Shown here: in pieces, positions 9,310 through 56,592 of the stretch | Layout: each line of letters begins with the position of its first letter | Position numbering within the stretch: the first letter of the stretch is position 1 | Source of the DNA: Heliocidaris erythrogramma | Taxonomy: Eukaryota; Echinodermata; Echinoidea; Camarodonta; Echinometridae | DNA length: 64,000 nt | Assembly: GCA_025617745.1 (NCBI GenBank) | Contig: CM046864.1 | Span: 3,370,616 to 3,434,615, forward strand | Direction: 5' to 3' | The notes under the pieces: generated by a model | Database searches by the model: none | What the model saw: only the letters and a program-made list of their open reading frames with translations | Told to the model about the DNA's origin: nothing | Position numbers and translations under genes: made by a program

Positions 9310-9721
9310 GGCTTATCTCGAAAGGGTGCGGTGCGGAGCGGCGCGGTGGGGAGCGTTCAACGCACCCTTTCGAGAAAAGCCCCCCCCCCCCTCCGCTTGT
9401 CTCGAAAGGGTGCGTTGAGAACGGAGTGGCGCGTTAACGCACCCTTTCGAGACAAGCGGGGGAGCTTTCTCGAAAGGGTGCGTTAACTAGTCTTCCACAT
9501 CAGTCGTTTATAATAAAATTAAAATATCATCTGTTTTCTAACTGAACGTGGAATTTAGCTTGCATGTGTTTAAAAAGAGGTAATATCGTGATACAGGCCC
9601 CGCAGCTTACCCGTCTTGCAATCGATCTTCTTAGACGTCTAACTTCAGCCAACTCACTAGTTATACTCGTGTTACAAGCCCCGGGCAACCACGTTGAACA
9701 ACTTACAAAACGGAAATGGGG
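9310..9721 (+). repeat. Left terminal inverted repeat
   Basis: The outer 180 bases contain five copies of a TCTCGAAAGGGTGCG(TT) motif in alternating orientation, forming nested hairpins around C- and G-runs. They may be transposase binding sites. The inner part holds a 50-residue frame starting MCLKRGNIVIQ that is conserved in the right TIR. Confidence 0.85.
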
Positions 9722-9739
9722 GGGGTTGAAATGTACATG

Positions 9740-10320
9740 TATTCATATATTCTTGATTTATTTATTCGTGGGCGTACCGGACAGGGGCTGTCAACCACTC
9801 CCCCCCCCCCCCCCCCACCAAAAAAAAAAATCCCAATTTTTCTTTCTTAAATCATTGTATTTTTTCAGCATTGTCATCACAGTGAATTTCCTTGAGTGTA
9901 TTCTACCTTTTATTTTTATTCTGTTATTTTGCTCAACCCCTCTTTTGTTCCTGAGGACACCCCCGCTTTTCTTTTTTTTGGCTTTGCTTTTCAGTTGGAC
10001 CCCCTTTTAATTTAATTTAATTTAATTTTTATCTGCCACTTCAGCGCAGTACCCCCCCCCCCCCAAAAAAAAAAAAAGAAGAAGAATATCACGCCATTTT
10101 ATTCATCTGTTCATTTAAATAATAACGCATGATGTACCGGGGCAACTAACCCCTACACAATCTCCCCCCAAAAGAACAACCATCCCCCCCCCCCCCCCCC
10201 ATTTTTTCTCCTTTTGTTTCTTTTTCTTTTTGATCATTGTTCTGATTAACCTGTACATGTTAATTGAAATGAATAAAGCATGACAAACCCAGATCAACTA
10301 AAAGGGGGAGGGGGCACGTC
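9740..10320. repeat. Poly-C, poly-A and T-rich low-complexity stretch
   Basis: Contains C-runs directly followed by A-runs near 9800 and 10053 and another C-run near 10187. No coding content is credible. Confidence 0.7.
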
Positions 10321-10374
10321 CTATTCTGCCTCCCCCTGGATCTGTCCATGCCCAGGTAACAGGCCCATGTGGGG

Positions 10375-13300
10375 CCCATATGGGCATCATCCGGGCCATC
10401 TGGGCCATCTGGGCAAAAGGGAACCCATATAAATCCCATATGTATCCCTTGTGGGATCCATATGGGTTAACCCATTTTGAAATCTACTTGGGCCAGCCCA
10501 TATGGGAACCATATGGGAAAAGACTGGGAAAACCCATATGGGAATGACATGTAAATGCCCATATGGGTATCATATGGGAATAAGCTGGGCAAACCCATCT
10601 GGGAAACATCTGTAAATGTCCATATGGGTACCATATGGGAATAAGCTGGGCAAACCCACCTGGGAAAGACATGTAAATGCCCATATGGGTATAACATGGG
10701 AATAAACTGGGCAAACCGATATGGGAATGACATGTAAATCCCCATATGGGTATCATATGGGAATAAAATGGGCAAAACAATATGGGAATGGCATGTAAAT
10801 GCCCATATGGATATAAAATGGGAATAAACTGGGCAAACCGATCTGGGAAACATATATATTTACCAACATGGGTATCATGTGGGAATAAGCTGGGAAAAAC
10901 CAAATGGGAAAGACATGTAAATGCCCAAATGGGTATCACATCGGAGTAAGCTGGGCAAACGCATCTGGGAAACATATATTTTTGCCCACGTGGGTATCAT
11001 ATGGGAATAAGCTGGGCAAACCCACCTGGGAAACATATATATTTGCCCATACGGGTATCATAAGGAATAAAATGGGCAAACCGATATGGGAATGACATGT
11101 ATATGCCCATATGGGTATTACATGGGAATAAACTGGGCAAACCAATATGGGAAAGACATGCAAATGTCCACATGGGAATCATAAGGGAATATGCTGGGCA
11201 AACTCAAATGGGAAAGACATGTAAATGCCCATATGGGTATAACATGGGAATAAACTGGGCAAACCGATATGGGAATGACATGTAAATCCCCATATGGGTA
11301 TCATATGGGAATAAAATGGGCAAAACAATATGGGAATGGCATGTAAATGCCCATATGGATATAAAATGGGAATAAACTGGGCAAACCGATCTGGGAAACA
11401 TATATATTTACCAACATGGGTATCATGTGGGAATAAGCTGGGAAAAACCAAATGGGAAAGACATGTAAATGCCCAAATGGGTATCACATCGGAGTAAGCT
11501 GGGCAAACGCATCTGGGAAACATATATTTTTGCCCACGTGGGTATCATATGGGAATAAGCTGGGCAAACCCACCTGGGAAACATATATATTTGCACATAT
11601 GGGTATCATAAGGGAATAAAATGGGCAAACCAATATGGGAATGACATGTAAATGCCCATATGGGTATTACATGGGAATAAACTGGGCAAACCAATATGGG
11701 AAAGACATGCAAATGTCCACATGGGAATCATAAGGGAATATGCTGGGCAAACTCAAATGGGAATGACATGTAAATGCCCATATGGGTATAACATGGGAAT
11801 ACACTGGGCAAACCGATATGGGAATGACGTGTAAATGCCCATATGGGTATCATATGGGAATATGCTGGGCAGACCCAAATGGGAAAGAAATGTAAATGCC
11901 CATATGGGTATCACATGGGAGTAAGCTGGGCAAACCCATCTGGGAAACATATTCAATTGAGCATATGGGCATCATATGGGAATAAGCTGGGCAAAACCAT
12001 CTGGGGAAACATATGTAAATGCCCATATGTATATCATGTGGGAATAAGCTGGGCAAAGCCATATGGGAAAGACATGTAAATGCCCAAGTGGGTATCACAT
12101 CGGAGTAAGCTGGGCCAACCCATCTGGGAAACATATATTTTTGCCAAAATGGGTATTATATGGGAATAAGCTGGGCAAACCCGCCTGGGAAACATATATA
12201 TTTGCCCATATGGGTATCATATGGGAATAAAATGGGCAAACCGATATGGGAATGGCATGTAAATGCCCATATGGATATAAAATGGGAATAAACTAGGCAA
12301 ACGGATATGGGAATGACATGTAAATGCCCATATGGGTATCACATGGGAGTAAGCTGGGCAAACCCATCTGGGAAACATATGTAAATGCCCATATGTATAT
12401 CATGTGGGAATAAGCTGGGCAAAGCCATATGGGAAAGACATGTAAATGCCCAAATGGGTATCACATCGGAGTAAGCTGGGCAAACCCATCTGGGAAACAT
12501 ATTTTTTTGCCAAAATGGGTATTATATGGGAATAAGCTGGGCAAACCCATCTGGGAGACATATATATTTGCCCACGTGGGTTTCATATGGGAATAAGCTG
12601 GGCAAACCCACCTGGGAAACATATATATTTGCCCACGTGGGTATCATATGGGAATAAGCTGGGCAAACCCACCTGGGAAACATATTTATTTGCCCATATG
12701 GGTATCATAAGGGAATAAAATGGGCAAACCGATATGGGAATGACATGTAAATGCCCATATGGGTATTACATGGGAATAAACTGGGCAAACCAATATGGGA
12801 AAGACATGCAAATGTCCACATGGGAATCATACGGGAATATGCTGGGCAAACTCAAATGGGAAAGACATGTAAATGCCCAAATGGGTATTACATTGGCATA
12901 AACTGGGCAAACCGATATGGGAATGACATATGAAAGCCCACATGGATATCACATGGGAATAAGCTTGGCAACCCCATCTAGGGAAACAACTGTAAATACC
13001 CATATGGGTATCATATGGGAATATGCTGGGCAAACCGATATGGGAATGACATTTAAATGCCCATATGGGTATTACATGGGAATAAACTGGGCAAACCAAT
13101 ATGGGAAAGACATGCAAATGTCCACATGGGAATCATACGGGAATATGCTGGGCAAACTCAAATGGGAAAAATATGTAAATGCCCAAATGGGTATCATATG
13201 GGAATAAGCTGGGCAAACCCACCTGGGAAACATATATATTTGCCCAAATGGGTATCATATGGGAATAAAAAGGGCAAACCGATATGGGAATGACATGTAA

Positions 13301-14480
13301 ATGCACATATGGGTATTACATTGGAATAAACTGGGCAAACCAATATGGGAAAGACATATGAAAGCCCACATGGATATCACATGGGAATAAGCTTGGCAAC
13401 CCCATCTAGGGAAACAACTGTAAATACCCATATGGGTATCGTATGGGAATATGCTGGGCAAACCGATATGGGAATGACATTTAAATGCCCATATGGGTAT
13501 TACATGGGAATAAACTGGGCAAACCAATATGGGAAAGACATATGAAAGCCCACATGGATATCACATGGGAATAAGCTTGGCAACCCCATCTAGGGAAACA
13601 ACTGTAAATACCCATATGGGTATCATATGGGAATATGTTGGGAAAACCGATATGGGAATGACATGTAAATGCCCATATGGATATCACATGGGAATAAACT
13701 GGGCAAACCGATATGGGAATGACATGTAAATGCCCATATGGGTATTTCATGGGAATAAACTGGGCAAACCCAAATGGGAAAGACATGTAAATGCCCATAT
13801 GGGTACTTTATGGGAGTAAGCTGGCCAAACCCATATGGGAAAGACATATGAATGCCCACATGGATATCACATCGGAATAAGCTGGGCAACCCCATTTAGG
13901 GAAACAACTGTAAATACCCATATGGATATCATATGGGAATAAACTGGGCAAACCGATATGGGAAAGACATGCAAATGTCCACAAGGGTTTAATGTGGGAA
14001 TTAGCTGGGCAAACCCAAATGGGATATATATGTCAATACCCATATCGGTAATAAATGGAAGTAAGCTGGCCAAACCCATATGGGAAAGACATATGAATGG
14101 TCACATGGATATAACATGGGAATATGCTGGGCAAACCCATCTGGGAAACATATCTAAATGCCCATATGGGTATCATGTGGGAATAAGCAGGGCAAACCCC
14201 TGGGGAAAGACATATGAATGCCCATAGGGATATCACATGGGGAATAAGCTGGGCAACCCCATCTGGGGAAACAAAAGTCAATGCCCATATGGGTTTCATA
14301 TGGGAGTAAGCTGGGAAAGTCTATATGAGTATGATATTCCAAAGTCTAAATGGGTGTCATTTTGAAATGACCTGGGCAAACCCATATGTTAAAATATGTA
14401 AACCCCAATGTGGGTATCATTATTGGAATGATCTGGGCGAACCCATGTGGGTAAGATGTGTATATCATAAACTGGGTAAA
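10375..14480. repeat. 61-bp satellite array (CCCATATGGG units)
   Basis: About 67 head-to-tail units of 61 bases. A typical unit holds ATGCCCATATGGGTATCA, then ATGGGAATAA(A/G)CTGGGCAAACC, then ATGGGAA. Units differ by substitutions. Blocks recur: 10484-10975 and 11179-11523 repeat at about 548 bases, or nine units, and other blocks recur at three, five and seven units. Because 61 is not a multiple of three and the unit is poor in stops, long frames open on both strands; none is a real gene. The array fades into diverged units near 14300-14480. Confidence 0.95.
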
Positions 14481-14929
14481 CCCATATTCTTGAGGGGTAC
14501 ATACTTCTGACAAAAAATTATCAGCATACTATTAAAGATCTACATTGTACACATGTGCAAACTGAATTCATATTTTGTTGTCATTATACTGGCCCTAACT
14601 TATCAAACGGTAATAGAGTACCGAAGTGTGACGTCATACCGCCCAAGTTGTCAAGGTTGCTGGTTCTGAACAATTTTGTGCTGAACAATGGCGTGGTGAT
14701 CACACCGGCACCAAACACTGAATTTGCCCTGCTCCAGCCCGTCGCTTGACTGATTTCGCGGTGAAACTCAAGCACGGGCTTTGTTGTTTAGAACTAGTAA
14801 CCTGGACGACGAGCGAATATGACGTCAGCACTTAGGTACTCTATTAATCTATGCAAACCTAAAGAATGTGAGAAGTGCTTAAGAGAAAATGAAAGCACCT
14901 CCCAACCCCCATGTACTTTTGACCCCTAG
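14481..14929. other. Spacer with a MITE, inside the giant element
   Basis: Apart from the palindromic MITE at 14611-14846 there is only short AT-rich spacer. Confidence 0.45.
14611..14846. mobile_element. Palindromic MITE, 236 bp
   Basis: Starts TAATAGAGTACC and ends GGTACTCTATTA. The TIRs remain alignable for about 60 bases and include a TGACGTCA-type palindromic core on both sides. There is no coding capacity. It is nested in the giant element. Confidence 0.7.
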
Positions 14930-16352
14930 TACAAATGGTTGAGTCCACTTTTCAAACCTGCGCCACCTTTTGAGGAAACCGCATTCCATTGCTACAACTT
15001 ACGAAGGAAGCACTACTACACATCCGCCTCCCTACTCTTTGAAGGTAAGCTGCTTTTCATATCTTATCATTTCTTTCTAAATTCCATTTTCTCTTTGATA
15101 TTGTTTATTAATTTAAAAGTACATATATAGCCTGAGATGTACCATCCAGTGACATTTTCTGGTCCATGGCTGTCTTTTGTGGGATTATTATGGGTGAATT
15201 GATAGAGAAATGTGAATTCAGTTGAGATACCAACACTATGAACACGATGAACAATTGCTTTGGTAGACAAAAGAACATCCCTTCTTTACTATTATGTAAA
15301 ATAAGCAGAAGAGGTGAATATGCATGTTACACCTGTTCTACATATTTTTACATAATAGCAATGAAAGGATGTTCTTTTATCTACCAGGGCAATTGTGGAA
15401 GGTACAATGAGGAGCTGTATATTTTATCTGTTTCTTTGTTCGCCATGTTCATAGTGCAGTTTACCTTAGATTAATACTCCCATTGTTTAAGTTGCAAGGT
15501 CCAAGAGGAAAGAAGTATGCCTGGGCCATATCGTTCACCCACCGCGTGATAGTTTACATTCCCTGCTATTCTGTTTATAACCATGGGGTTGTGTGGTAAC
15601 TTCTTGGTTTAACTAGTGGTCTTGCTTTCCATGTATATGGGCTAAGAAATCAAAATCATTTCACTAGGCAAGTGTGTATCGAGCACATAATTATGCAGTT
15701 CAATTTCAAGACAAGATGAATGTCATAGTTTATTATGTCATAATAACGTTATTGTTCGCTTCATGTGAGGAACATCTGCCACAAATGAATAATCGATGTG
15801 TCATTACTACCATTCTCAAAATATACAGATGATCTTGATATCTTTATAAAGTTGCCTTTCTTGCACTCTATTTCTCTCCCCTCCCCTTATTTCTGTATCA
15901 GTATTGTACCTTTATTCCATACACCATTTTATTTTCTGCTATATTTCTTGTCATTTCCCTTTGCATGGGTCAATAGGTATTATCCATATTTCTATATGTT
16001 TTCTTTTTTTCCTTTTTCTTTTCTTTTTTTTTTTTTTGGGGGGGGGACACGACACTCTTTGATTTTTTTTTATTTGATGGAAACGGCATGATGTCTCGTA
16101 TATGTGGTATATATAGAGAGTGAGAGAGAGAGAAGGGCAGGGGCAGGAGAGAGAAAAAACGATTTGCTTTTTAAAAAATATCTGCATTGGTGATCAAAAA
16201 TTGTGCAAATTTCTCTACAAAAGTTTAATATTGTAAATATGCTAGTGTAATATTTTTTGTGAAATTTGTTACATGTACATATATCTCACTCTGTCGTTTC
16301 AGATCCAGGAAATAGACGAGAAAAACAACAACGGTACGAGGAAACAGCATAA
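14930..16352 (+). CDS. Possible captured two-exon gene 3' end (tentative)
   Basis: Exon A, 14930-15044, lies between the acceptor CCCCTAG and the donor GAAG|GTAAGC and encodes 38 residues (ending KHYYTSASLLFE) plus one base. Exon B, 16303-16352, follows the acceptor GTCGTTTCAG. The split codon closes as GAT and 15 more residues, DPGNRREKQQRYEETA counting the split codon, run to a TAA. Both splice sites are good and the phase matches, which suggests a host gene fragment carried inside the transposon. I do not recognise the protein. Coincidence remains possible because the exons are short. Confidence 0.33.
15251..15396. mobile_element. Palindromic MITE, 146 bp
   Basis: Starts ACAATTGCTTTGGTAGACAA and ends with a near reverse complement (CTACCAGGGCAATTGT). 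The arms are about 60 bases. It lies in the intron of the tentative captured gene piece. Confidence 0.7.
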
Positions 16353-18265
16353 GCAGTATTAAACGTAACAACTAAAAAAAGAAATTGACGTGTATTATAG
16401 ATGGACAAAATGAAGAAGACTTCTGGCACGTGTTAAGATTATATCATGATTATATCCAAACTGGATGAAGCTGTTAAGGTGGCACCATAAGTAGTACCCG
16501 CAGGAAAATGTTTGCAGTATTCGGAACTGAAGAAATGTTTACTATGAATACTATGGAGGCCAGGAAAACTCCTTTCAACATGCCCTGGTCGTGTATGCAT
16601 CTCAACTATGGGGGAATGCACAATCAACTGATGAACAAAAACCGCAGCTTCATTAGATGTTGACCAGTAATTTGGATAATTATGAGGAAGTGCCAGATGG
16701 AAACAACTATTGTTTAACCTTATCGTTTGGATAGCATGATGTGATTGTAATAACAAATACTGCATATTAATCATCTTTAATGTATGCATGGTGAAGGAGG
16801 CCTAGAGATTACAACTGGAGGAGAAAGTCTATTGTATATATATCAATTCATTCTACTTCTGACCGCCGTTCTGTTATTTGATGAATTCGCCAACTGGGCC
16901 TTTGGGTATTAAAATATTACTTAGCTCTTTGTGATAAGATACATGCATTTCTGAAAGAACATTCTAAACTCATGGGGCTTGACACTGAACTCCACTAGCC
17001 TGCACGTTATGAAGGAACTAATGGCGAAAAATGGATAGTGTGAAATTGTTTCGGGGTATCGCCTTAACCATGACATATGTAGTGGCAAACTATAGTCCGG
17101 AGTCGACCCTTCCGAACAGATGCATATTTTTTTCAATAGTGAGAAGGAGCCGTGATATAAACTACCTAACCAATATAATATTCCATTATTTATTATTTTC
17201 ACAATGTGTTTTTCTTTTAAGTTTGTTTTAAGTGTGTTGCCAAGGCTGTTCTTTAGAAATTGTACTTACAGTATCTAAACACACTTCCAATGCCATGTGA
17301 TGTGTCACAAAATGAATTGTATGAGAAATGATTCCATCAAAATCCCATTATCATTTTTAATGGTAGACTCCTAAGCTTATTTCACTTCAATAATGTATGT
17401 CGTTGCATATCCCCAAGCTTAAAATGAAAAATCTCCAGTTCTTTTTGTAAGGTGAACATTATGGTGGTTAATTGATTGATAATTTATTTAACCTGACAGC
17501 TAAGAAAGCAAGTTAGCGTATGTTTGTAAGCAACCAACAGGGGAAAGAAATCTTTTAGTCCTATTCGAGGGACTTGGATTAATTCCTTACCAACTACACA
17601 GTATTAATTTCTAATATTAAAAAGGTTTACTTTGAAATATGATTACTTACTATTTAATGGGTAAAACTATGTAGAAATAAGTGAATACATGATTGCATGA
17701 ATTGGATTTATGGGGTACTTCATGGAAATCTAATTACTGCTATGGAGTAAATTTCATGGGCATGTACGATAAGTGAAAATATATTTGATGAAAATATCAT
17801 TTATAGATGCATATTTATAATAAAAAATGTTTATATACTTTGATAATCTAATTACTACTCTGGAGTAAATTTATTGGGTATGTAGCAATAAGTGAATGCA
17901 TGTCAGCGTGAATGAGTTTGGTGGGGGTACTTCATATATAGGCATGCTCAGAAATTTGTTGACCGCGCAAACAGGTCTGTTTTCAAGACAAAATTCGACA
18001 GGCAATACTCATTATTTGTGACATACATGTATGTACACAGGTTGCATGGCAGGTCACCGGCAACTTATATTTCAAGTACCCCCAATTTTTCATTTTAATG
18101 TTGTTGTTTTTTGTACTGGCATAGCTGTGGTGAGAGGCTGATGATGATTGCATGATCAAGTAGTCTGTCCCATGAATTTCCTTAAAACCGATTTAGGAGT
18201 TGTCCCCTTGTATCGAATGAATAGACCAAAATAGGCATATTGTAAATCTCAGTTGCTAAATTATT
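16353..18265. other. Non-coding interior of the giant element
   Basis: No domain or RNA was recognised. A 116-residue frame on the minus strand (16789-16439) has mixed composition but no recognisable motif or splice context. Around 17641-17935 there is a diverged tandem duplication of roughly 205 bases, marked by CTAATTACT(G/A)CT and GGGTACTTCAT in each copy. Confidence 0.45.
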
Positions 18266-18269
18266 TCGG

Positions 18270-18870
18270 GCCCATGAGGGGGCCCATGGGGGAACACAAT
18301 ATATGGGATCAATCATACTGTTCCCATATATTACCCAGATGGACCCCAGATTAAACCCATATGGGCCATCGGGTATGGCCCATATGGGTCCCCAATGGGC
18401 CTTGTGTGCAAAATACTATGGGGCCCCATATGGGCATTCCAGGGTAGGACGCATATGGGGAACCCACAGATAATACCCATATCGGATAGCCCATATTTTA
18501 CCCACATATTTCCCACATTTATACCCAGATGGGCCCCAGGCCGAACCCATATTGGCCATCTGGGATGGCCCATATGGGACCCACATGGGCCTTGGGTGCA
18601 AAATCTTATGGGGCCCGTATGGGCATTCCCATGTGGGACCCATATGGGAACCCACAGATAATACCCATATAGGATAGCCCATATTTTACCCACATATTGC
18701 CCACATTTATACCCAGATGGGCCCCAGGCCGAACCCATATTGGCGATCTGGGATGGCCCATATGGGACCCACATGGGTCTTGGGTGCAAAATCTTATGGG
18801 GCCCATATGGGCATTCCCGTGTGCGACCCATATGCAAACCCATATGGGGCCTACATGATCCCCATATGGG
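18270..18870. repeat. Tandem array, period about 189 bp, sharing CCCATATGGG
   Basis: Roughly three copies; the marker GCAAAATCTTATG (or ACTATG) recurs at 18409, 18599 and 18787. Each unit is rich in GGCCCATATGGG-type palindromes, like the 61-bp satellite 4 kb to the left, but has a different unit length and order. Confidence 0.85.
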
Positions 18871-18879
18871 CTTGCTACC

Positions 18880-19765
18880 TGGGTGCCTTTATCCCCTTCC
18901 TTGCAATTACATGTACCCCCCCCCCCCCCCGAAAAAAAAGCAAGTGAATATCCCCTTATATATCCCCCTTATTCCCTCCCTCGCCATTACCCCCCCCCCC
19001 CCCCCGCAAAAAAAAAATAATAATAATCTTTAATACTTGGGGAAAGTATATCTCTTTATCTCCGCTTTATACTTAATAAAATATTGGAGGAAAGTATCCC
19101 CTTATATCGTTTTAGCCCCTCCTTTGCAATTCCCCCTCCGCCTGTCCTCCAAATAAAATTAAATTAAGGAGGTAATTTCCGGGGGTAATTTGTTTTGTGT
19201 AGTTAAGGGTTTCAAAAGGGGGCCGCCGCCTATTCTGCCTCCCCCGGGATCCAAGCCTTTATCCCCTCCCTTGCAATCACCCCCCAAAAAGGTTAAAATA
19301 TTGGGGAAGTATCCCCTTATATATCATTGTAACCCCTCCCTTGCAATCCCCCCACCACCGCCCCAAAAAAGGAGGCAATTATTTTATTGTGTAGTTAAGG
19401 CATGCCACTTGGATTTTAAAGGGGTGCACAGCCGCTTTAGCCCCTGGATCCGGATGCCCATACCTTTATCCCCTCCCTTGCAATTACCCCCCCCCCCCCC
19501 CCCTCGCCATTACTCCCTCAAAAATATACATGGGGGGAGTCCCCCATTAAAAAAAAATAGATATTGGGGGAAAGTATCCCCTTATATCCCTTTAACCCCT
19601 CCCTTGCAATTCCCCCCTCCGCCCCCCCCCCCCCCCCCAATTTGTTTTATTGTGTACTTAAGGGTTTCAAAAGGGGGCCCCGGCCGATTCGAATCCGTCC
19701 CTGCCTTTATCCCCTCCCTTGCAACTATGCCCTTATGTGTAATCGTGAAGCCCCACTACCATGTT
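18880..19765. repeat. C-rich degenerate tandem repeats
   Basis: The phrase CCCCTCCCTTGCAATT recurs in full or altered form at least six times with CCCCTTATAT and long C-runs between. The proline-rich open frame over 19190-19786 is a by-product. Confidence 0.8.
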
Positions 19766-19832
19766 GTCTGTCTTCATTTTGCATAGGATGGGGCCTTGTT
19801 CACGAGTTTATAATGTTAAATCGCGATACAGG

Positions 19833-20251
19833 CCCCATTTCCGTTTTGTAAGTTGTTCAACGTGGTTGCGCGGGGCTTGTAACACGAGTATAACTAGTGA
19901 GTTGGCTGAAGTTAGACGTCTAAGAAGATCGATTACAAGACGGGTAAGTTGCGGGGTCTGTATCACGATATTGCCTCTTTTTAAACACATGCAAGCTAAA
20001 TTCCACGTTCAGTTAGAAAATAGATGATATTTTAATTTTATAAACGACTTATGTGGAAGACTAGTTAACGCACCCTTTCGAGAAAAGCCCCCCCCCCCCC
20101 CCCCCCGCTTGTCTTGAAAGGGTGCGTTAACGGGCCACTCCGTTCTCAACGCACCCTTTCGAGACAAGCGAAGGGGGGGGGGCTTTCTCGAAAGGGTGCG
20201 TTCAACGCTCCCCACCGCGCCGCTCCGCACTGCACCCTTTCGAGATAAGCC
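19833..20251 (-). repeat. Right terminal inverted repeat
   Basis: Reverse complement of 9310-9721 with a few substitutions and a longer C-run. The MCLKRGNIVIQ frame here runs 19990 down to 19808 on the minus strand with only a few residue changes from the left copy. Confidence 0.85.
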
Positions 20252-20296
20252 CCTCCCAAATACGTGTCAACAGTAGTCCAATGAGCTGCTATCTTT

Positions 20297-21187
20297 ATGA
20301 CGTCATTTAGTGTAGACCTTGCTTATGCCGACCAACTGGCTATACATTTGATTAATAACTTAGAGTGTCGCACCCACAGAACTCCGTTCTGTGGTCGCAC
20401 CTTGCAAATTTGTTCTCCGTGTGAGCTCAACCCCGAGCTTCTTCGCATCAAGCAAATTCTGGGAGACAATGGCTATCCGGAGCTTGTCATTGATCGCGTT
20501 GTGCAGCGTACCATTGATTCGCGGACTCGCCCTGTGTATGGGCCTAATAAATGCCCAGTCTACCTCAAATTACAATGGCGAGGTAAAGAGATAAGTATGC
20601 GCGCGATATTAAGCATACAGTGTCGCGCTGTTACTTTGCCGTGGCTACGCGTGTCGTGTTCTCTACTAATAGAATGCTACCCGCAGTTCGCAAGGATGTA
20701 CTGCCTTCCCCCCAAATGAGCAATGTCGTTTATAAGTATCATTGTCGGTGTGAAGCCGTCTACGTTGGCCGTACATCTCAGCGTCTAGCGGACCGCATTA
20801 AACAGCACGTACCCTCCGTGGTACGACATACAGCAGCTGGTAGCCGGGCACAGCCGAAGCGTTATTGCAAAACCGCTGCTAGCGTCGCTAATGTTCAGTG
20901 TCGCAATCACCGCGACTCTGCTATTGGTCAGCACTTTCTGAATAGTCCGGCTTGTTCCAAGGCGCATAACCCAGCTCAGTTCACTATTGTTGCCCGAGCA
21001 CGCAGCTCTCAGCATCTTCGCTTCTTAGAGGCGCTGTTCATTCAGTCGAGAGATCCGCTATTGTGCCGACAAAAGGAGTTTGTACAGGCTCTTCGATTAT
21101 TTTTAGCGTGCCCGGATCATATCCGGGTCGCTGTGCACACCCTCCTTGACTTTCGTATTTACTTGTATTCTCTCATTCCTGCGTTGT
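20297..21187 (+). pseudogene. Penelope-like retroelement fragment (linker and GIY-YIG endonuclease)
   Basis: The first frame (from 20297) carries the linker phrase LRIKQILGDNGYPELVI. After a one-base frameshift at about 20583-20592 the second frame reads ARDIKHTVSRCYFAV, then the endonuclease. Endonuclease landmarks are VVYKYHCRC (GIY-like), YVGRTSQRLADRIKQHVP (YVG plus the conserved Arg and His) and FLEALFI with the expected Glu; the frame ends with TGA at 21187. In Penelope-like elements this endonuclease follows the reverse transcriptase, which is absent here, so the copy is 5'-truncated as well as frameshifted. It starts within about 40 bases of the giant element's right target duplication. 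Confidence 0.85.
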
Positions 21188-21189
21188 GA

Positions 21190-22330
21190 CCCGATGGCGA
21201 TGAGTGCAGATCGAAAAGCTTCGTCTTTCGAATTCATGGGGAAATGAAGTAAAATACCTTATTTTCTTAGTATTTTCTAAGTAAAAAGGAGTCAAGATTT
21301 TTGTCCAAGTACTATTATCCCGTACTACCCCCCCCCCCCCACTCACCAATTCCATTTCACTAGTTGATGACTTTGCAAACTTTAACTCTGAAAACTGAAC
21401 TTTGGCATTAATGTTACCACACAGGTGTTTGCATCTTCACACCGTAGAGATGGTAACGTGTTAAAAAAACATTTCAATCCAGATGTAGTAATCCCATTCA
21501 TCTGGTAATGTTCCATTCATTGATATGAAACAATTTCAATTACGTTTTAATTTTCATATTATCCATTCTACGAATTTTCAATACACATACACGTGCTAAA
21601 TATATTTAAAGATTGCGCATTTAAATACGCGTCATTCGACAATATTTGATAATTTGTGTTTTGCAGATAATTATAATTATAATCTGTATATATTAAATTT
21701 GGAATGAAACAGCGGCGTCGCTAGAGGGGGGGGGGGGTGCACCCCACTCAGAATTGCGGTCAGGCAAATGCGCCACCTCTACAGGGTCGTCGCTAGAACA
21801 TTTTGAATTGAGTTTTTAGGGTACATGTAAATGTAAATTTGCCAAAATTTTCCAAAATGCTGTACACTAGTCTCCCCCTCAATGTACTACTAATAATAAA
21901 AGAAACTCGCAGGGGTAGAGGTCTAGATCATACGGGCCCATTTTCGAAAGGGGGCTCACGCCTTTTGCCTAAATATCAAGGTTTTCAATTTCTTAATTTT
22001 TGCCATCAAGCGAAGCGAGCGAGCAAAAAAGGAAAAACTTTTCGTAGTGAAATGTAAGGGAGATCTGGGTGAGTTGATACACCTCCTAGAACTCCCACTT
22101 GCATTCAAGAAAGACAGATCAAACGCCCGCTGTTGGTAGTGTGTCAGTCACATATCTTTCTTTTCAGTTGAGGCAAAAAGTTGCATAACAGCTCTATAAA
22201 CATGAGGTGAAGGAAGAACACTAAATTGCTCCAAAAAGTGGATTTTAGAGTTAGAAATTCGACCCTTTCTATCATTTACATAGGAACACTTACTTTTGTC
22301 GCATTGTGGGCAACATGTAGCCTGTGCATT
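21190..22330. other. Non-coding with a dispersed repeat
   Basis: Poly-C (21330) and poly-G (21727) runs. 21785-22050 is copy A of a dispersed repeat whose copy B is 32568-32840 (shared marks GCTAGAACATTTTGAAT, ACGCCTTTTGCC and GCGAAGCGAG). A 64-residue minus-strand frame at 22338-22148 with CCPQCDKSKC has zinc-ribbon-like spacing but no family was assigned. Confidence 0.5.
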
Positions 22331-22546
22331 GTAAATTTGGTCTACGCCCGATAGTCCGCGGGGCCGATAGACCGCGGGTCCTATAGACCGCGGGTCCGAT
22401 AGACAGCGGGGCCGATAGACCGCGGTGTCTGAAATGCAACGCATTTTCACATCACGTCTTAAAAGCATAATGACTCAAATAATTCATGTATCTTAATCCC
22501 GGGGGGGGGGTATCTTCCATTGAAATCCGTACAACATCCGCGAACC

Positions 22547-22865
22547 TGAAAACGAGGAAAAGGGGTAGTTTTTCAGGGTCGGCCGCGGATCCGCGTTAAG
22601 GGTGTCGAAAAACGAAAAATATATACTGAACTACAAAAGAAACGTCGCACATGTATGTGTTTGAAACTGTTTTATTTACAATGACACATATTCTTTATTC
22701 AAGAGTGAAAACGAGGAAAAAGGGTAGTTTTTCAGGGTCGGCCGCGGATCCGCGTTTAGGGTGTCGAAAAACGAAAAATATATACTGAACTACAAAAGAA
22801 ACGTCGCACATGTATGTGTTTGAAACTGTTTTATTTACAATGAAACATATTCTTTATTCAAGAGT
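22547..22865. repeat. Two direct copies of a 159-bp unit
   Basis: GAAAACGAGG recurs at 22548 and 22707, and the 159 bases between (including GTCGGCCGCGGATCCGCGTT and the left Tc1 end) are almost identical, with two or three changes. The left tip of the Tc1 element is therefore present twice. Confidence 0.9.
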
Positions 22866-23675
22866 GAAAACTGAGAAAATGTTTTGCTTTGGTTTGATTA
22901 ACAAGTACAGATGTGCAATAACGACTCTCGTCGTTGATAGCGCCAGTTCTGACGTTGTTGGGCCCACAGGAGACGTTCCCGACGATGTCGAACAGTGAGG
23001 ATAGGGCCCCGAGCAGGACGCCGACAAGACAAGTTGAAGCTTCTCAGCCGACGACGAACAGTTGCTGCAGAAATTGGTCTGTTGTGTGTGCCAATAGTCT
23101 GTAGAGCCGATTCTGTTGCTCTGCGGAAGCGATCCTGCAAGTGGTTCCGGTGAAGATGGCGATCTTGACGTGCTGTTGTCACCCTGGGACGACCACTGCG
23201 CTGACGATCGTTGGTGCTGTTGGTTGCATTGTATCGCTCCCGCAGTCTCTCTACTGTCCGAACGCTGCATTGAAGTCGTTGGCAATGACTCTGGGACGTT
23301 GGCCAGCATGAAGACGTCCGATGGCTTGTTCCTTCTGGTTTCGAGTCAGACGTGGCATGGTGACAGCGCTCAGGAAACGAATGACAGGATGAAGGTTTTG
23401 GGTCCCTTTTAAACCCACTGGATAGAGGATGTGCATGTGCATCATGCTTTTCAAAAAGCTGCACTCGAGTGCACTACCCTGTTCACGGAAAGGATATGAG
23501 TTTTAATCCTACACAGAAATCACATTTTGTTATGATGATGTGTTATGGACGGTCAATGCCATATCTGTGATGTTAAAAAAGCATAAAATGTGATTTTACG
23601 TATCAAATTCCAATATCAAGTGTAAACGATATCAATTTGAAAAGTACGACGTTTCTTTTGTAGTTCAGTATATAA
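22779..23675. mobile_element. Deleted Tc1-like DNA transposon
   Basis: The TIRs are TATACTGAACTACAAAAGAA on the left (22781) and its reverse complement, continuing through ACGTC, on the right (ending about 23673), flanked by TA. It contains a minus-strand remnant of a Tc1 transposase. At about 0.9 kb it is shorter than full Tc1 elements (about 1.3-1.7 kb), in agreement with loss of the catalytic half. Confidence 0.85.
22898..23358 (-). pseudogene. Tc1 transposase N-terminal remnant
   Basis: Starts MPRLTRNQKEQAIGRLHAGQ at 23358. The first helix-turn-helix follows; a frameshift at about 23265 is needed to continue into SVRTVERLRERYN, then RSGRPRVTTARQDRHL (the GRPR AT-hook-like linker) and ISAATVRRRLRSFNL with RGPILTVRHRRERLLWAQQ (second HTH). 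The reading ends shortly after QNWR; the DDE catalytic domain is missing. It could at most encode a DNA-binding fragment. Confidence 0.85.
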
Positions 23676-23924
23676 TAATAACAAAAATAATAATAATACT
23701 TGGTTCTTTTATAGCGCATTACACATAGCAACACTGCGTGTGTGTGTGTGTGTGTAATTGGGCTTTTACAGACGTGTATCAATCAGATATGATTATTTAC
23801 GTCTGGGGACCGACCTTTAACGTCACCATCCGAAAGACGTGACTCAGTCTCGAACCTGGGTCCACTGAATCAGTTTATAACTTCCACTGTTAGCTGGATT
23901 ACAGGCGCACGCCACAACGCCCAG
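23676..23924 (-). repeat. SINE with 7SL-like head, copy A
   Basis: Read on the minus strand, the head is GGGCGTT followed by GTGGCGTGCGCCTGTAATCC and AGCTAA, then CCCAGGTTCGAGACTGAG. This resembles the Alu domain of 7SL RNA, including an internal A-box-like segment and a GGTTCGAGAC B-box. A body with CGTCTTTCGGATGGTGACG, a CA-repeat, AATGCGCTATAAAAG and an ATT-rich 3' tail follow. A second copy lies at 52586-52805 in the opposite orientation. The tail abuts the right end of the Tc1 element. Confidence 0.7.
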
Positions 23925-24028
23925 TTGTCCATGTCCCTATGCGCTTTAGAAAGTATGAACGAAATAACTTAGAAATAAGAAGGTGCATACAATGTATAAT
24001 GTTGGACACTGAGTTCATACTCTAAGTA

Positions 24029-24981
24029 TTAAAGATCACATTACAAGAAAATCACAATTATGGCAATTAATGTATCACTAGAAACTGGGAAGCTTACAGA
24101 TGGCAATCGTATAAGTTTTATGTCAACTGCGTATCTGATGATTATAAAAACAACATAAATAAAAGCTCTTCTAAGCATCTGGAATATCCGAGGATTCGCC
24201 AGAAATATAGCGATGTTTTGATGTCGTCACACTAGGGATCGATCCTGCTTAAGCAGACGACGTCCTATAATGAATGAACGTAATTGCAATGCAATTATTT
24301 ATCAAATTATAAAGAGTTTGGTATATTTAAACATGACCTTATTTCACACCATTCTAAAAGGGAAAGTGAAACTGATTCTGATAACTAAAACCGTTTGATT
24401 GTAAATACACAGGAGAAGGGTCAATGATCAATGAAATAAACCCCATTTTCAAATTGAAAAGCCCTCCGAATAATAGCACGGATGGTATTCGTTCCCTCTT
24501 GAAACGCCGAACATGCCCCGGTGCAAGCAGCTGAAAATACAATGGCGTCTTATTTTGTTTACAAGTGACTGATTCCTTTATTTTTTTAACGCTGCATTTT
24601 TCATCAAAATAATACCATACACGAACTTAAGAGTGAGGCAACAGACTAACATTAAGACTGACGCTAGTCAAGTAAGAGAAATAAGTGAAGAGGAGATGAC
24701 AAAACAGGCACTGAAAAATGTGTAAGATGTTATGGGACATCGTCTGCTTAGACAGGACTGGCCCCTGGTGTGTCGTCACACATCTCAGCAGCGTTCGAGG
24801 AGCTCTTCAGCTGCTTTATCGGGGGCTGTATTTAACCGTTTTATAATTGATAATAATCATTACTTCAAATGTTTCCAAGCGTTGAATTTGGATAACCTTG
24901 TTTAATTTATGCCATATATGCAATAAAAAGTATTAAGCCAATATTTACTTTCATGGAATTTTCTTGTAATGTGATCTTTAA
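24029..24981. mobile_element. TTAA-flanked non-autonomous transposon, copy A
   Basis: The TIR TTAAAGATCACATTACAAGA continues with AAAT at 24029 and appears inverted at 24957-24981; both ends begin with TTAA, the target site of piggyBac-type elements. An inner pair of inverted segments (about 24215-24275 and 24728-24790, each with CAGACGA(C/T)GTCC) is visible. There is no coding capacity. The same 0.95-kb sequence recurs inverted at 53649-54615. Confidence 0.75.
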
Positions 24982-25749
24982 ACAGATATATTTTAAGGGA
25001 GATTTTGAACTTATCTAAGTTGCTTTCATATCTCATGATACCCTTTTCATACAAAAGGGTATCAAAATCACACTTCTGACCAAATGCAGGGAAAAAGGGT
25101 ATGAAATTTAACACGGCCAACCCGCGGAAAAGGTACAATTTATTTAGAATTTGAAAATTTCGGTCCTATATGCTCGCCCTGTTAGGGTGTAAAAACATGC
25201 CGTTAAAAATTTCTCTCAAAATCAAGAATGAACAAATATCCCTTTTTAGGTATCAAAATCACAAAATCTGTATCCTCGTTTAGGGTGTTTGTCAGAGGGT
25301 AAAGTTCGAGGATGCTGGACGGGTCTTAATGGAAGATCCCCCCGGGATCTTAATCAATTTTTCAATTTTATTTCCCCTTTTTTATATATTGATATTGTCA
25401 ACAAATTATGCTATTATGTATGCGTCATTTAAAGGGAACATATGAATTACAAGTTAGTCTTTAAAAAACATTTCTTTCATATTTCCCTCTTTGATTTTGT
25501 CTGCTTCCACGTCACCTTGCCCATAATCTTGGAGTGTTATAATTATGTAGGCCTACTAGGCCCTATGTTTCCTTCCGTATGAAAATAAATCAAACTGAAC
25601 TTATATTTTTGATATAGATGAATAACTTGGGATTTGCACAAATAAAGCTTCTTTTTTGAATGAACCCCCTCCACGGTATATCGGTCCCGCGGTCTATAGG
25701 CCCCGCGGTCTATCGGCCCCACGGGCTATCGGGATTCCCCCGTAAATTT

Positions 25750-44824: not shown

Positions 44825-47800
44825 CTGTTCAAGAACAAAGAATACAGAAATTAAGTCAATTTTATAAAAGTATTGTCATTATACTCCTTGTTTGGGATGA
44901 AATAACTCAATCTTAAAGTAATCTGATCATACATCACGATCAACTCAATCTTAAATTAATCTGATCCTACATCACTATCAAAGTTTTTTTTTACAGAAAC
45001 TGTTGAAGTGTTCAATATAAATTGATTTGCAGGTCCTTTTAAAGCATACAAAAAAGAAAGATACTAAAGTCGTCTTCTTCAATTGGTCCGAACTTTGCAG
45101 CTGATTTTTGTTATATTCCAAATATGAGTGCATTTGAAGTAAGCCTGAGTCGAATCGATTGGTTAGCCGGTGTTCGATCGAAGACATCGAATCCCGAATA
45201 CGTTTTGGCAAATTCGGTGCATCGATTTGTTGTCCGCCAGATTTTTGACTACCGTAGCCACCACGAAAAAATCAAATAAAAAAAGAAACTCCGTAACGTA
45301 CAGCATATATACTAGCAGAGAACGTGAAGGCGACTTCAAAGTTCAAACTGTTGGCTAACTTTCGCTAATTCGCTCGCGGAGGACGTCGCGCTTTACCTGT
45401 GCTTTCTCTATGGAAAAATCGTTTTGTCGTTACGAACTGAAGTTTACGATAATTTTCTTGCACTCTCTCTGCATTGTCAATTTGACAATTGTATAATTGA
45501 ACATGATAAATACGGGCATGAGTACGAGTGTTCCTACTTAATTCGCAATAACTAATATCACACTCTCATCAAATTGGCAATTACTTCTGAATGATCTCTG
45601 AAGCTGAATGAAGTCGAGTCTATATTGAGCGACGAAAAGTTAATTTCGTATTGTTTTTTTTTTTTGGCATCGAACAAACGTGTTCCATTCAGCTCTCCAA
45701 AGACAAAGTAAGATTATTAATTCTTTGAATTTGAATCATTGTCGGGTGTGTCGACAATGAGCATCGCTTCGTGCGACACTAGTGATATTTTGGCTAGCCA
45801 TACGGACTAGAAACTTAAGATTTTGGCTCGTCCGCTGTGATTTTTACTAGCCATTGGCTAGCGGGCTATCGTTAATTTCGAGCAGCGAGAGCCCATACAT
45901 ATGCCCGCGATGCCAGCGGACCGGTCACCTGTGCATGGTGCATGCACTGCGTGCAACTGTGTGCAACTGTGTGCAACTCTGTTTTCACCGCACATCATTT
46001 ATCGATTAACCGGTATTCGATCGAATCAAAGCCGTCGAATCCCGGTTTATGAAATATTCGATATGACTCAGGCTTAATTTGAAAACAAATTTTCAGGTCA
46101 TATTTTTACAATGATATTCTTTCAAACTGAAGTTAAAAGAATGAGACAGCTCACAAATTATTTTCCTCTTTCCCAGAACTCCACCTTTCCTTTATTAAGG
46201 TTTATCAACAATCTTCAAATATTTACATGAAATGCATTTGAAATTTTCTAAATAAACATTGATTTGCACAAATTTGCACAACTAAAATTTGTCCGGCAAT
46301 GGGAAAAGTTGTTGTAAAGAACTTTGCGGCAGTCGTTATTTGTAGCAACTATTATAAAAACAAATAATAGCAACGAAGAGACTTGGCAGATAGATAGAAC
46401 TTACTTGTGTTTTGTTCCATGGCCCCAGGCCTGTGTGTAATCTTCACATCGCCAGTAGGTGGCAGCATCTTTCTTTGGGTAGTCATCTAGTTCATGACGT
46501 GTGAAACGTTTGTGTACGTGATGAGAGGTTGGTACATAGATATCAAGAAGCTGAAGAGCTCCATCATCTCGGACAAGAGTTGGCTTGTATTTAGGTACAC
46601 TGTCCTGTAAGAAACAAGTCAATAGATATTATTCAAAATGATTCACTGAAATGACTCTAATAACTAATTAACAACTTTCACAAGCAGGGGCCGTATTCTG
46701 AAAACGATGTTTATTTAATGTTAGTAAAACAATGTTAATTGTCATAACAAATCAAAATCAGGACAAGTCATTCGTTAATGATTGCGCAAAGATGGCTGTG
46801 CTCGCGTAAAGTTAACAGAGACATCTGCGCAAGCACCAATGATTAGTGTTTATTGCTTTATTTGTTATGACAATTAACATCGTTTTTCTTAACATAAAAG
46901 ATAAAATCGTTTTCAGAATACCACCCCAGGACATCGTTCCAAGTTTCTATTATTTCTTCATAGTGATATTCATTCTTGTGATCTTGTAATCCTAAAACTT
47001 AATTGTACTTCGTTTCTCTATTTTATTGTTTATGTAAAAAAAAAAACAGAGAACTAAAAGAAGATGAGTTCTGTAGATTTAATAAGTTCAGGTTTAGCAA
47101 CATGGATCTTATTCTTACCCTGACTGGGGCAGGACAGTTCTGGTGATGAGCTTGAAGATTAGATGGTTGTGGATTACCACTCAGCCTGTTGTCAAAGTCT
47201 ACACCCATCTGTATTTGGTCTCCTTTGTACTGTGATTGGACTTCACTCTCCTGATGGCCCATGGTTAGTGGTTTTCTCCAGCCTCTTTGTTGAAGCTGAT
47301 GGGAAAAAGATTGTTTTAAATCGAGTTAGTTTGTTCATTATTAGAGTAACATATGCAGATCTATACAATTAAATCAATTTCTCCAGCAAATTCAGTGTTT
47401 TATCACTTTTATGAAGAAAAAAATTCTTTTCACTTCGTCTTCAGGAACAATCCATACAATACTGTACACTGCATTCACTATTACAAAAATAAAATTACCC
47501 AGAAGCACTCACAATATCAAATAATTTCATATAAGATCTACAAAATTTTTTACTTGTGGTTCAAAAAAAAAAAAAGTTTGAAAATAATAGAAACACTGAT
47601 AGTACTTAACCCCCCCCCCCCAAAAAAAAATAATAATAAAATGACTTATCGTAGACTAGACCTACACAATATTTGAAACTCTAAGAGAGAAAAAAGAAGA
47701 AAAGTTTGATTCGTCATGATCTTACCTTTTCTCGTAAGTCCTTATTGTAGTGCATATTCCAGTGACCTGGGGCCTTATGATGCTGAGGGTTAGCCAGTAA

Positions 47801-50800
47801 ACCTCCATGATATTTGTAATCATGTGTCTTTCCTGTCGTTGTTTGGAATGGTTTAATGATTTCATCTTGTTTGGCAAGTTCAGGTGGAAGAGGGTTGTTA
47901 ATGGTAGTCTGTAAGTATAAGAAGACAAATCTTGTTACTGTATTTTCTAGATCTAAATCTGGTTGAAATTACAATGCAAGGAAGCAGCTAATAGTAGTTA
48001 AATATGTCTGCAACCTAACCTATTCCTAACCCCACCCGAAACCAACATGTTGTGAACCTAACCCTCACATATATACCGGTACAGGCTATTATAGCTAATA
48101 TGCCCAGTAATCCTCAAATTGGCAAGAATCCTACCTAAGATATAAAAAAAAACAGCAGAACGGAGGTATAGATAGGATTTGTATGGAGCGGAGGTATATA
48201 GTGCAGCAAGATCAGATTCGCTGTCAATTGCTCATGGTCTAGTGGTAAAGGCGTCTGGTCAGACTGTCAGTATTCTCTTTCTACACTGCACTCGCGTTTA
48301 AGGTCCAGGGTTTGAATCCCGCTCTTTCTTGCTGATAATTTTTTCAGTTATGAATCGATAACGATAGCGTTTATTCCGTTATAAATAACTGAATTTCAAC
48401 AATGAAAACCAAGAAACTTATTCACTTGATCAGGCGGATTTAATGGCGGCTGGGCATAATAACGACTTTGGCCCCGGTACATGACTGTCTGTTTCTGTTA
48501 TTACAAAAAAACAGGCAAACGTATCTATAGACTCAAAAATCTGTTCATTTGAAATTGAAATTGAACAAAAACATATCTATCAAAAAAGGGGTATGTTTCA
48601 GTAGATCTAATTCAATTCACAAGCCCCGAAATCCATGTTAAATATCTTAAACTGCATGTAAATTCAATGAGTGCACCAAAATGGGACACTTTCTTTTTTC
48701 TTAGGAGGTGGAGGAAATTTCAAATTGACAATGCTGATATTTTGCATGAAAATGACATTGTTCTTACTCAAACTAATTCGATGAGATTTTCTATGAAATT
48801 AAGCATTAGAATTAATATAAAACTAAAAAAAATTTTTTTAATTTTCACTTTTAAGTCAAATTTTAATCTGGTGCACAAACATGTTCATGGGCCTCTCAAA
48901 TAATTACTATAGTATGTTGCTTGGCTGTGATATATTATTGTATTGTAACGTAAGATTTTAGTGTGTTATTGTTGACATTGTCACTGACAGGTTAACAATA
49001 GCTGAGACCCTTTTTACAAGTTTAGTCATACAATTTCAACTTTAAAGTACCAGTAATTAATTAATTAATTAATTAATTAATAATAATTTGATTTATATAG
49101 CGCTTTTTGCTAGAGGTACAAAGCGCTTTAAACATAGATAAATTTACATTACACTACTAAATAATACTCGTTACATTACAGTACATTACATTACATTAGA
49201 CATAAATGGAATAACTGGACCTATAAATCTCATGCTTTATGTTTAGACTGAGTGTAAAGTACTGTTTTCAGTTGAAGTTTAAAAGAATTAACAGAATTTA
49301 AATTTCTCAGATGCTTTGGTAATCGATTCCAGCATTTAGGACCTGTGACAGAGAAAGCTTTGGAACCTACATTTGTGCGAGTACGGGGTACATTGAGAAC
49401 AGTTGCAGAATCAGACTGGGATCTAAGATTGTATGAAGTAGGGCGAACATGAACAAGATCAGCTAGATATGAGGGTGCTTCATTGTGTAGGGATTTAAAT
49501 GTAATCAGAGCAGTTTTGTATTCAATTCTTTGGGGAACAGGTAACCAATGCAAATCATGGAGTAAAGGGGAAGTATGGGTGTTCTTCGGCTTTTTATAAA
49601 TAAGGCGAGCAGCTTGGTTTTGAAGGAGTTGGAGGGTATGAACATTCTTTGTTGTGGTGTTGGACAAAAGACTGTTACAGTAATCTAATCTTGATAGAAT
49701 TAAGGCACGAACAGCCGCATGAGTGGTGTTGTCATCCATATATTTCCTTATCAGCCGCAGGTTTCGGAGGTGAAATTTGACAGTTCTAGAAACATTTATG
49801 ACTTGTGCATCATGGCACAATCTACTGTCAAATATGACTCCAAGAAGTTTAAGGGCTGATGAAGGTTTTAGAGTGACATCACCAAACCTGATCTCAGTTA
49901 ACGACAGTCGCTGTTGGTAAGCCTGTGATGAAACAATTAAAAATTCAGTTTTAGATTGATTGATTTTGAGTTTATTGAGAGTCATCCAAGCATAAACATC
50001 ATCCAATACTTCTGTCAGCTTTGCCACCACAGACTGGACAGATTCTAAGGAGCTGGGGTCGCATGTCAGGTAGATCTGAATATCGTCAGCATACATGTGG
50101 TAGTTAACGTTATGCTTGCTGAAGATGTCAACAATCGGTTGCAGATACATGGTAAAGAGCACGGGGCCTAATACCGAGCCTTGGGGGACTCCATATTGAA
50201 GCTTGACATCAGGAGATTGGGAGTCGTCAACACAAACTGACCATGTCCTGCTGTTCAGGTATGACTTGAACCATTTCAGAGACAAATCAGTTATTCCAAA
50301 TTTTGTTTGAAGACGATCGATCAATATTCCATGATCAAGCGTGTCGAACGCGGCAGATAGATCGAGTGACAAAAGGAAGGTGGCCTGTTTGTTGTCAAGG
50401 GCTCGAGAGATGTCGTTCTGCAGAAGTAGAAGTGATGTTTCTGTGCTATGACACCTTTTGTAGGCCGACTGCTTAGGATCCGTCAGTTCATTTTGATCCA
50501 AGTATTCACTGAGCTGCTTGGCTACAACTTTTTCCAAGACCTTTGCCAGGAAGGGAATGTTGGATATGGGTCTATAATTACCCAATGCATTTTTATCTGC
50601 AGTCTGTTTTTTTAGAACTGGGGTAACCGTAGCAACTCCAAGACATTGAGGAAAAATGCCAGTTTCGAGGGATGCATTTACAGTCTCAACAATGAAAGGC
50701 ATGAGGACAGGAATGTGCTGCTTAAGGAGCCATGTAGGTAAAGGATCAAGTGAGCAAGTCTTATTAGGTATCTTTCTGATTATATCTTCCAAGTTCTTGG

Positions 50801-53648: not shown

Positions 53649-54615
53649 TTAAAGTAGAACGTTAATGATTTTAAATATTGGCTTAATACTTATTATTGCA
53701 TATTGGCTTAATACTTATTATTGCATAGATGGCATAAATTAAACAAGGTTATCCAAATTCAACGCTTGGAAACATTTGAAGTAATGATTATTATCAATTA
53801 TAAAACGGTAAAATACAGCCCCCGATATAGCACGTGAAGAGCTCCTCGAACGCTGCTGAGATATGTGACGACACACCATGGACCAGTCCTATCTAAGCAG
53901 ACGATGTCCCATAACATCTTACACATTTTTCAGAGCCTATTTTGTCATCTCCTCTTCACTTATTTCTCTTCCTTCACTAGCGTCAGTCTTAATGTTAGTC
54001 TGTTGCCTCACTCTTAACTTCGTGTATGGTATTATTTTGATGAAAAATGCAGCGTTAAAAAAATAAAGGAATCAGTCACTTGTAAACAAAATAAGACGCC
54101 ATTGTATTTTCAGCTGCTTGCACCGGGGCATGTTCGGCGTTTCAAGAGGGAACGAATACCATCCTGCTATTATTCGGAGGGCTTTTCAATTTGAAAGTGG
54201 GGTTTATTTCATTGATCATTGACCCTTCTCCTGTGTATTTACAATCAAACGGTTTTAGCTATCAGAATCAGTTTCACTTTCCCTTTGTAATGGTGTGAAA
54301 TAAGGTCATGTTTAAATACACCAAACTCTTTATAATATGATAAATAATTGCATTGCAATTACGTTCATTCATTATAGGACGTCGTCTGCTTAAGCAGGAT
54401 CGATCCCGAGTGTGACGACATCAAAACATCGCTATATTTCTGGCGAATCCTCGGATATTCCAGATGCTGAGAAGAGCTTTTATTTGTGTTGTTTTTATAA
54501 TCATCAGATACGCAGTTGACATAAAACTTATATACGATTGCCATCTGTAAGCTTCCCAGTTTCTAGTGATACATTAATTGCCATATTTGTGATTTTCTTT
54601 GAATATCTACTTTAA
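53649..54615. mobile_element. TTAA-flanked non-autonomous transposon, copy B
   Basis: Reverse-complement relative of 24029-24981 over nearly its whole length. The ends are TTAAAGTAGA and TCTACTTTAA, again beginning with TTAA, but the tips differ from copy A. A 28-base tandem duplication (TATTGGCTTAATACTTATTA type) near 53683-53735 is specific to this copy. Confidence 0.75.
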
Positions 54616-56111: not shown

Positions 56112-56416
56112 GGCACGGTCTTATAAAGAGTTGCAGTTAATTGCAACTTATATTGGTATCGATCTCAACTTATATTGGTATCAATCGCAACTTATATTGG
56201 TATCGATCGCAACTTATATTGGTATCGATCGCAACTTATATTGGTATCGATCGCAACTTATATTGGTATCGATCGCAACTTATATTGATATCGATCGCAA
56301 CTTATATTGGTATCGATCGCAACTTATATTGATATCAATCGCAACTCCACATAAGAGATAGGAGACTGTAAATTTGCAATTGATTGGAATTGATTGCAAC
56401 TCTTAAAAGACAGGGC
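56112..56416. repeat. 22-bp minisatellite inside a hairpin-ended repeat
   Basis: 56137-56346 has about nine units of CAACTTATATTGGTATCGAT (plus CG). The flanks GGTCTTATAAAGAGTTGCA and its near reverse complement (TGCAACTCTTAAAAGACAGG) form the outer inverted repeat, so the array has probably expanded inside a MITE. Confidence 0.8.
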
Positions 56417-56592
56417 CGAGGAGACACAGTGTCATTCCAATGTACAGTCCCAGTAGGGAAAGGTATACCCTCCCAAGATTTGTCTTTGCTCTTTGCTTCT
56501 ACTGTTGTGCTTTAGCCAACATTTGCTGACACCTTGGTATACCCTTCCTAAATATTCAAGTGATTCCTTCGCAACATCTTTAAGCGTCTCTA

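Follow-up and report, generated by a model that had tools for sequence, protein, structure and literature searches.

Mutator-like elements (MULEs) leave target-site duplications of 8-11 bp and often have inverted ends hundreds of base pairs long (PMC6446971), and complete arthropod MULEs span 1.4-10.0 kb (PMC13359780). Some lineages with such ends also carry tandem repeats. Rehavkus elements, reported from arthropods and annelids, encode a PHD-finger transposase and leave 9-bp duplications; their inverted ends measure 26-400 bp, and a minisatellite precedes the 3' end. In aphid Phantom elements a minisatellite follows the transposase (PMC6446971). For Rehavkus-1_TC of Tribolium castaneum, 9.5 kb long, the inverted termini are described as containing a 164-bp satellite, mostly as five and eight monomers. 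Foldback-type Mutator elements have repeated motifs in their ends and 8-10-bp duplications (PMC3169594, PMC5225508), and Tetris of Drosophila virilis, a non-autonomous foldback element with 8-10-bp duplications, contains ~220-bp repeats that have turned into a satellite (PMC4079207) and is named among satellite sources (PMC9659126). Here we describe an element of related build in the echinoid Heliocidaris erythrogramma, within a 64,000-nucleotide stretch of contig CM046864.1 (assembly GCA_025617745.1, positions 3,370,616 to 3,434,615, forward strand; hereafter the window, in whose coordinates all positions are given). An original prediction, made from the sequence alone, had called it a giant satellite-carrying MULE of a kind rarely described in animals, a claim of rarity that Rehavkus, Rehavkus-1_TC, aphid Phantom and Tetris weaken: the size and satellite content are notable, but close published precedents exist, and the design is known from a few insect transposon families.

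Results and discussion

The boundaries point to a single insertion

The element occupies positions 9310-20251 (10,942 bp; Table 1) and is flanked by an exact 9-bp duplication, CCTCCCAAA, which occurs exactly twice in the window, each time abutting a tip. A string search of the whole window found the tip itself, GGCTTATCTCGAAAGGGTGC, at 9310 and, inverted, at 20232-20251, one time each. When the right end was placed at each of eight positions from 20247 to 20254, only 20251 gave 20/20 tip matches together with the 9-bp duplication (8/20 for the runner-up). Three further junction bases, GCC, match too, which makes the bare direct repeat 12 bp long, and its reading as a 9-bp duplication depends on choosing matched tips; identical 9-mers occurred by chance at 75 of 2,000,000 random pairs of window positions (satellites included). 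We take the element's boundaries to be settled, with the inverted ends and exact flanks 11 kb apart just where the prediction had put them, and they speak strongly for a single insertion.

The ends are long, composite and self-inverted

The terminal inverted repeats had been predicted at 415 bp, and at 412 bp (left) and 419 bp (right) they fall within a few bases of that figure. Local alignment of the two gave 393 identities among 406 aligned bases and 19 gap columns, of which poly-C/G tracts account for 14; the 13 differences (3.2%) comprise nine transitions (two at CpG) and four transversions. Five copies of GAAAGGGTGCG lie in the outer part of the left end in alternating orientation (9320 +, 9361 -, 9404 +, 9438 -, 9472 +) and five more in the right end, where the outermost copy deviates at one position. 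When a single mismatch was allowed, this motif matched 10 times in 64 kb, five times per end and nowhere else (0.49 expected; 0/100 shuffles reached 10). The alternating orientation of its copies makes each end self-inverted in its outer part, and self-comparison of the right end returned a self-inverted stretch at 20067-20202 with the same build as the left end. As single-stranded DNA, positions 9310-9500 fold at -67.4 kcal/mol (z -10.4; 0/200 shuffles as stable). Such long composite ends, whose internal repeats fold back, place the element in the foldback-type structural class. The ends also stand out in CpG content, with observed/expected ratios of 1.20 and 1.10; the window as a whole has 0.61, and the two internal tandem arrays, A and B, have 0.21 and 0.24. 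An exact 21-base stretch of the end had 0 matches among IMG/VR viral contigs, which says little about an animal genome.

Table 1. Features of the element and its flanks, in window coordinates
Feature	Position	Strand	Basis
Left 9-bp target-site duplication copy, CCTCCCAAA	9301..9309	.	exact match adjoining left tip
Left terminal inverted repeat, 412 bp	9310..9721	+	local alignment of ends
Spacer with poly-C runs	9722..10339	.	C runs of 17, 13, 17 at 9800, 10052, 10184
Array A, 61-bp unit, 28 copies of CCCATATGGG	10340..14456	.	Tandem Repeats Finder (TRF) and motif search
Centre, 3,761 bp, no protein domain detected	14500..18260	.	six-frame Pfam scan
Probable nested miniature inverted-repeat element	14611-14846		arms 81.5% alike (self-comparison)
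Probable nested miniature inverted-repeat element	15251-15396		arms 83.8% alike (self-comparison)
Array B, plus edges, 9 copies of CCCATATGGG	18261..18890	.	TRF and motif search
Diverged ~200-bp repeats with poly-C runs, 0.9 kb	18891..19832	.	self-matches
Right terminal inverted repeat, 419 bp	19833..20251	-	local alignment of ends
Right 9-bp target-site duplication copy, CCTCCCAAA	20252..20260	.	exact match adjoining right tip

The interior holds two arrays that share a motif

Array A (~4 kb) and array B (~0.5 kb) sit 0.6 kb and 0.9 kb, respectively, inside the nearest end. TRF resolved the core of array A (10496-14456) as 64.8 copies of a 61-bp unit, next to an irregular left edge (10340-10495), and the core of array B (18332-18842) as 2.7 copies of a 188-bp unit. 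The motif CCCATATGGG occurs 37 times in the window, always within the element and always in these arrays (28 and 9 copies vs. means of 0.29 and 0.13 over 100 shuffles). The predicted cargo of tandem repeats sharing one motif is thus borne out; to call that cargo mostly tandem repeats was an overstatement, the called arrays making up 41% of the element, or 44% with their edges. Among the titles listed in a literature search on the motif, none describes CCCATATGGG in a satellite or transposon, and a single one deals with repeat elements, in work on CRISPR nickases in cancer cells.

Neighbouring CCCATATGGG-like sites (at most two mismatches) are spaced mainly 25, 36 and 11 bp apart in array A, and 11-12, 22-23 and 25 bp apart in array B. 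All-pair distances fall at 11, 25 and 36 bp in array A, with a further peak at 61 bp, and at 11, 14, 22-23, 25 and 34 bp in array B (at up to three mismatches also 34, 45, 48, 56 and 59 bp). From these spacings we infer an ancestral array unit of about 11-12 bp, with which the values of 14, 25 and 36 bp agree only loosely. Compared directly with array B, the left edge of array A scored 38 in the same orientation and 47 inverted (shuffle maxima 32 and 33), and a 244-bp piece of array A scored 39 and 49 (34 and 31; 60 dinucleotide shuffles each). Because CCCATATGGG is a palindrome, a stricter control kept the motifs of array B in place and shuffled the spacers between them 200 times. Against this control the inverted and same-orientation scores of A vs. 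B were 49 (reached by 22/200) and 45 (31/200) under the scheme 2/-3/-6/-2, 670 (0/200) and 552 (13/200) under 5/-4/-10/-4, and 37 in both orientations (0/200 each) under 1/-1/-3/-2, which suggests, at the level of sequence comparison, a kinship of the arrays that may go beyond the shared motif.

The two spacers inward of the ends resemble each other weakly (same orientation 48, maximum 41 in 40 shuffles; inverted 29, maximum 28), a likeness that we did not use. In the stretch of diverged repeats inward of the right end, 19077-19285 matches 19294-19492 at 67% and 19081-19276 matches 19561-19724 at 68.5%. Runs of at least nine C or G number 31 in the whole window, 11 of them inside the element.

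The centre yielded no transposase. Pfam has models for the MULE and DDE_Tnp_IS1595 transposases and for the PHD finger, and a six-frame scan of 14450-18333, the part of the element that was covered, returned no Pfam family at E up to 1. The same result gives no sign of a captured gene in the centre. Its longest stop-free stretch measures 120 codons, a length reached by 22/300 shuffles. Splice-like sites were spotted by eye near 15045 and 16303. Outside the element, the six-frame scans of window stretches listed neither MULE nor DDE_Tnp_IS1595, at E up to 0.5 on some stretches and up to 0.01 on others; they left out 49,751-51,399, whose 734-codon frame was scanned singly, and 56,351-59,049. Neither an Rfam family at the gathering threshold nor a tRNA turned up in the window. 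Inserted as a unit and with no transposase found in its centre, the locus supports well the prediction of one very large non-autonomous element.

The build is closest to Rehavkus and Phantom

With Rehavkus the element shares a 9-bp duplication, and its ends, at 412 and 419 bp, slightly exceed the described 26-400 bp. Here too a minisatellite precedes the 3' end, because an array lies before each end, whichever of them is 3'. The differences are that its satellite unit lengths are not those of this element and that the PHD-finger transposase was not found in 14450-18333, although a non-autonomous derivative would lack it too; we do not claim membership of Rehavkus. Phantom, Tm1 and Muta1 are described with 8-10-bp duplications, long composite ends built from repeated motifs, and non-autonomous derivatives with varied interiors, all of which recall the present element. 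Tm1-A and Muta1, which encode a transposase, are however short (2,593 and 3,198 bp; PMC3169594, PMC5225508), and the end motifs described for Tm1 and Muta1 stand in tandem, whereas those here alternate in orientation. Tetris, as described, offers the same non-autonomous foldback build, long ends, 8-10-bp duplications and internal tandem repeats, but its repeats of ~220 bp lie within the inverted ends, whereas the 61- and 188-bp-unit arrays here lie inward of the ends and are very unequal in length. The Pearl-family elements of bivalves (CvA, DTC84) are likewise non-autonomous with internal tandem repeats, some of them satellite-related, but are described as miniature elements (PMC5139131). Overall, Rehavkus and Phantom come closest in build. 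At 10.9 kb the element slightly exceeds the upper limit of complete arthropod MULEs and, because these reach 10.0 kb, is large but not out of scale. It adds an example, complete to its boundaries, of a DNA transposon of nearly 11 kb, about two fifths of it called tandem array, and by itself leaves the picture set by Rehavkus and Tetris unchanged.

A Mutator-type insertion is favored over a Merlin element

We favor, with some reservation, the view that a large non-autonomous DNA transposon of foldback type, which moves by cut-and-paste and comes most likely from the Mutator superfamily sensu lato, inserted here once. A transposase from another locus of the genome would have recognized the motif that recurs in the ends, excised the element and reinserted it here via a 9-bp staggered cut. 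Starting from a short palindromic unit of ~11-12 bp, the arrays may have arisen within the element and would have kept growing at this site by slippage or unequal exchange. The predicted label 'Mutator-like' is plausible from the 9-bp duplication, which falls within the 8-11 bp of the superfamily, and from inverted ends of a length, hundreds of base pairs, that is common there. Membership is probable, yet unproven, since the features on which the assignment rests, duplication and end length, are shared by Merlin, as are the tips.

That the same single insertion belongs instead to the Merlin superfamily, and was moved by a Merlin transposase supplied in trans, is the alternative that survives best, although we consider it unlikely. 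As described, Merlin elements have ends of 24-462 bp with a conserved 5'-GG-3' at the tips and duplicate 8 or 9 bp, and tandem repeats of 163 bp occur in one two-copy Merlin family (PMC8101967). The present element starts with GG and agrees with this description in its ends of 412 and 419 bp and its 9-bp duplication. However, where the available text states the length of Merlin ends it is 23-39 bp, and that text makes no mention of composite foldback-type ends (PMC8101967), whereas descriptions of Mutator, Rehavkus and Phantom elements include both ends that are composite and internally repeated and minisatellites in the interior. The centre does not decide the matter, as the six-frame Pfam scan found there neither a Merlin nor a Mutator transposase. 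A combined search found no literature treating Merlin together with Mutator.

Array A probably grew after the insertion

Within array A, positions 10661-11046 are identical over 386 bp to a copy at offset 548, and the other array A repeats listed are 96-99% identical. A perfect 386-bp duplication beside ends that differ by 3.2% (0/386 vs. 13/406 differences, Fisher P 0.0002) indicates that array A probably grew after the insertion, its last duplication postdating that event if the ends were alike at the time. With arrays that grew after landing, the element may have moved at a smaller size.

Taken further, the same observations allow that a smaller transposon landed and that most of the interior, arrays and nested elements alike, was added later through other insertions and array growth, so that nothing ever moved as an 11-kb unit; this we judge rather improbable, a little more so than a Merlin origin. 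In its favor are the perfect array duplication, which seems to postdate the divergence of the ends, the probable nested miniature elements in the centre, and a review according to which transposition efficiency falls above 6 kb and no Pack-MULE of one plant study exceeded 7 kb (PMC6431247). On the other side, the arms of the nested element at 14611-14846 are more diverged than the element's ends, and the centre may therefore predate the insertion, although those arms could have been imperfect from the start; and the motif CCCATATGGG, common to both arrays and absent elsewhere in the window, fits a common origin within the element. Finally, two separate insertions of a short foldback element, 11 kb apart and in opposite orientation, are hardly credible, for although each end is partly self-inverted and a solo copy could thus pass for one end, an exact 9-bp duplication touching the tips at their outer edges is not expected of independent insertions.

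Several points weigh against a Mutator-type insertion whose arrays expanded in place. The element is known here from one copy, within a 64-kb window. No transposase was found in its centre, for some transposases, perhaps that of Rehavkus, Pfam may lack a model, and the longest stop-free stretch there is not short, 7% of shuffles reaching it. After the shuffle tests, arrays A and B can be called no more than possible inverted copies of a single array. The dating takes it that the ends started out alike at insertion and have since mutated like the array; as the two ends of one Tm1 element average 93.15% identity (PMC3169594), those here may never have been identical. The 386-bp run, moreover, is the best match among many offsets, and a perfect duplication of this kind could also come from gene conversion.

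A more speculative idea, which we regard as doubtful, is that the CCCATATGGG arrays have a function in a giant family of transposons, for instance as binding arrays for its transposase or a host protein, and that the family would seed a new satellite with each insertion, the array growing after landing.

Surroundings of the insertion

The insertion sits among other repeats. By Pfam, the stretch near 22.9-23.1 kb carries an HTH_Tnp_Tc3_2 domain and a frame of 734 codons at 49.2-51.4 kb contains RVT_1; matches below cut-off were to zf-RVT (near 7.4-7.5 kb) and to reverse transcriptase (two, at 41.9-42.3 kb). Just right of the insertion, 20587-21189 gave a weak GIY-YIG match (15.2 bits vs. a cut-off of 22.6), possibly from a Penelope-like remnant; the plus frames of 20252-25203, this region included, returned no Pfam family at E up to 0.5. 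An inverted pair of 918-bp repeats (24029-24944 and 53700-54615) is 96% identical.

A second satellite, at 59914-61825, has a 59-bp unit in 26.7 copies (TRF, 60245-61825). Close to its left edge it is broken up by a miniature element of palindromic build (59999-60251), another copy of which, 87% identical, lies at 46687-46930. Adjoining this satellite on the minus strand, a PAXNEB domain (61784-61960, E 2.7e-19; Pfam) points to a eukaryotic gene near 61.8-62.0 kb; that scan also matched Stork_head in three frames, but these matches are located in the satellite and look spurious. Lastly, two short arrays of a 16-bp unit, at 22348-22425 and 25674-25732, match each other in inverted orientation at ~91% over 58 bp; they lie 3.2 kb apart and could mark the ends of another element.

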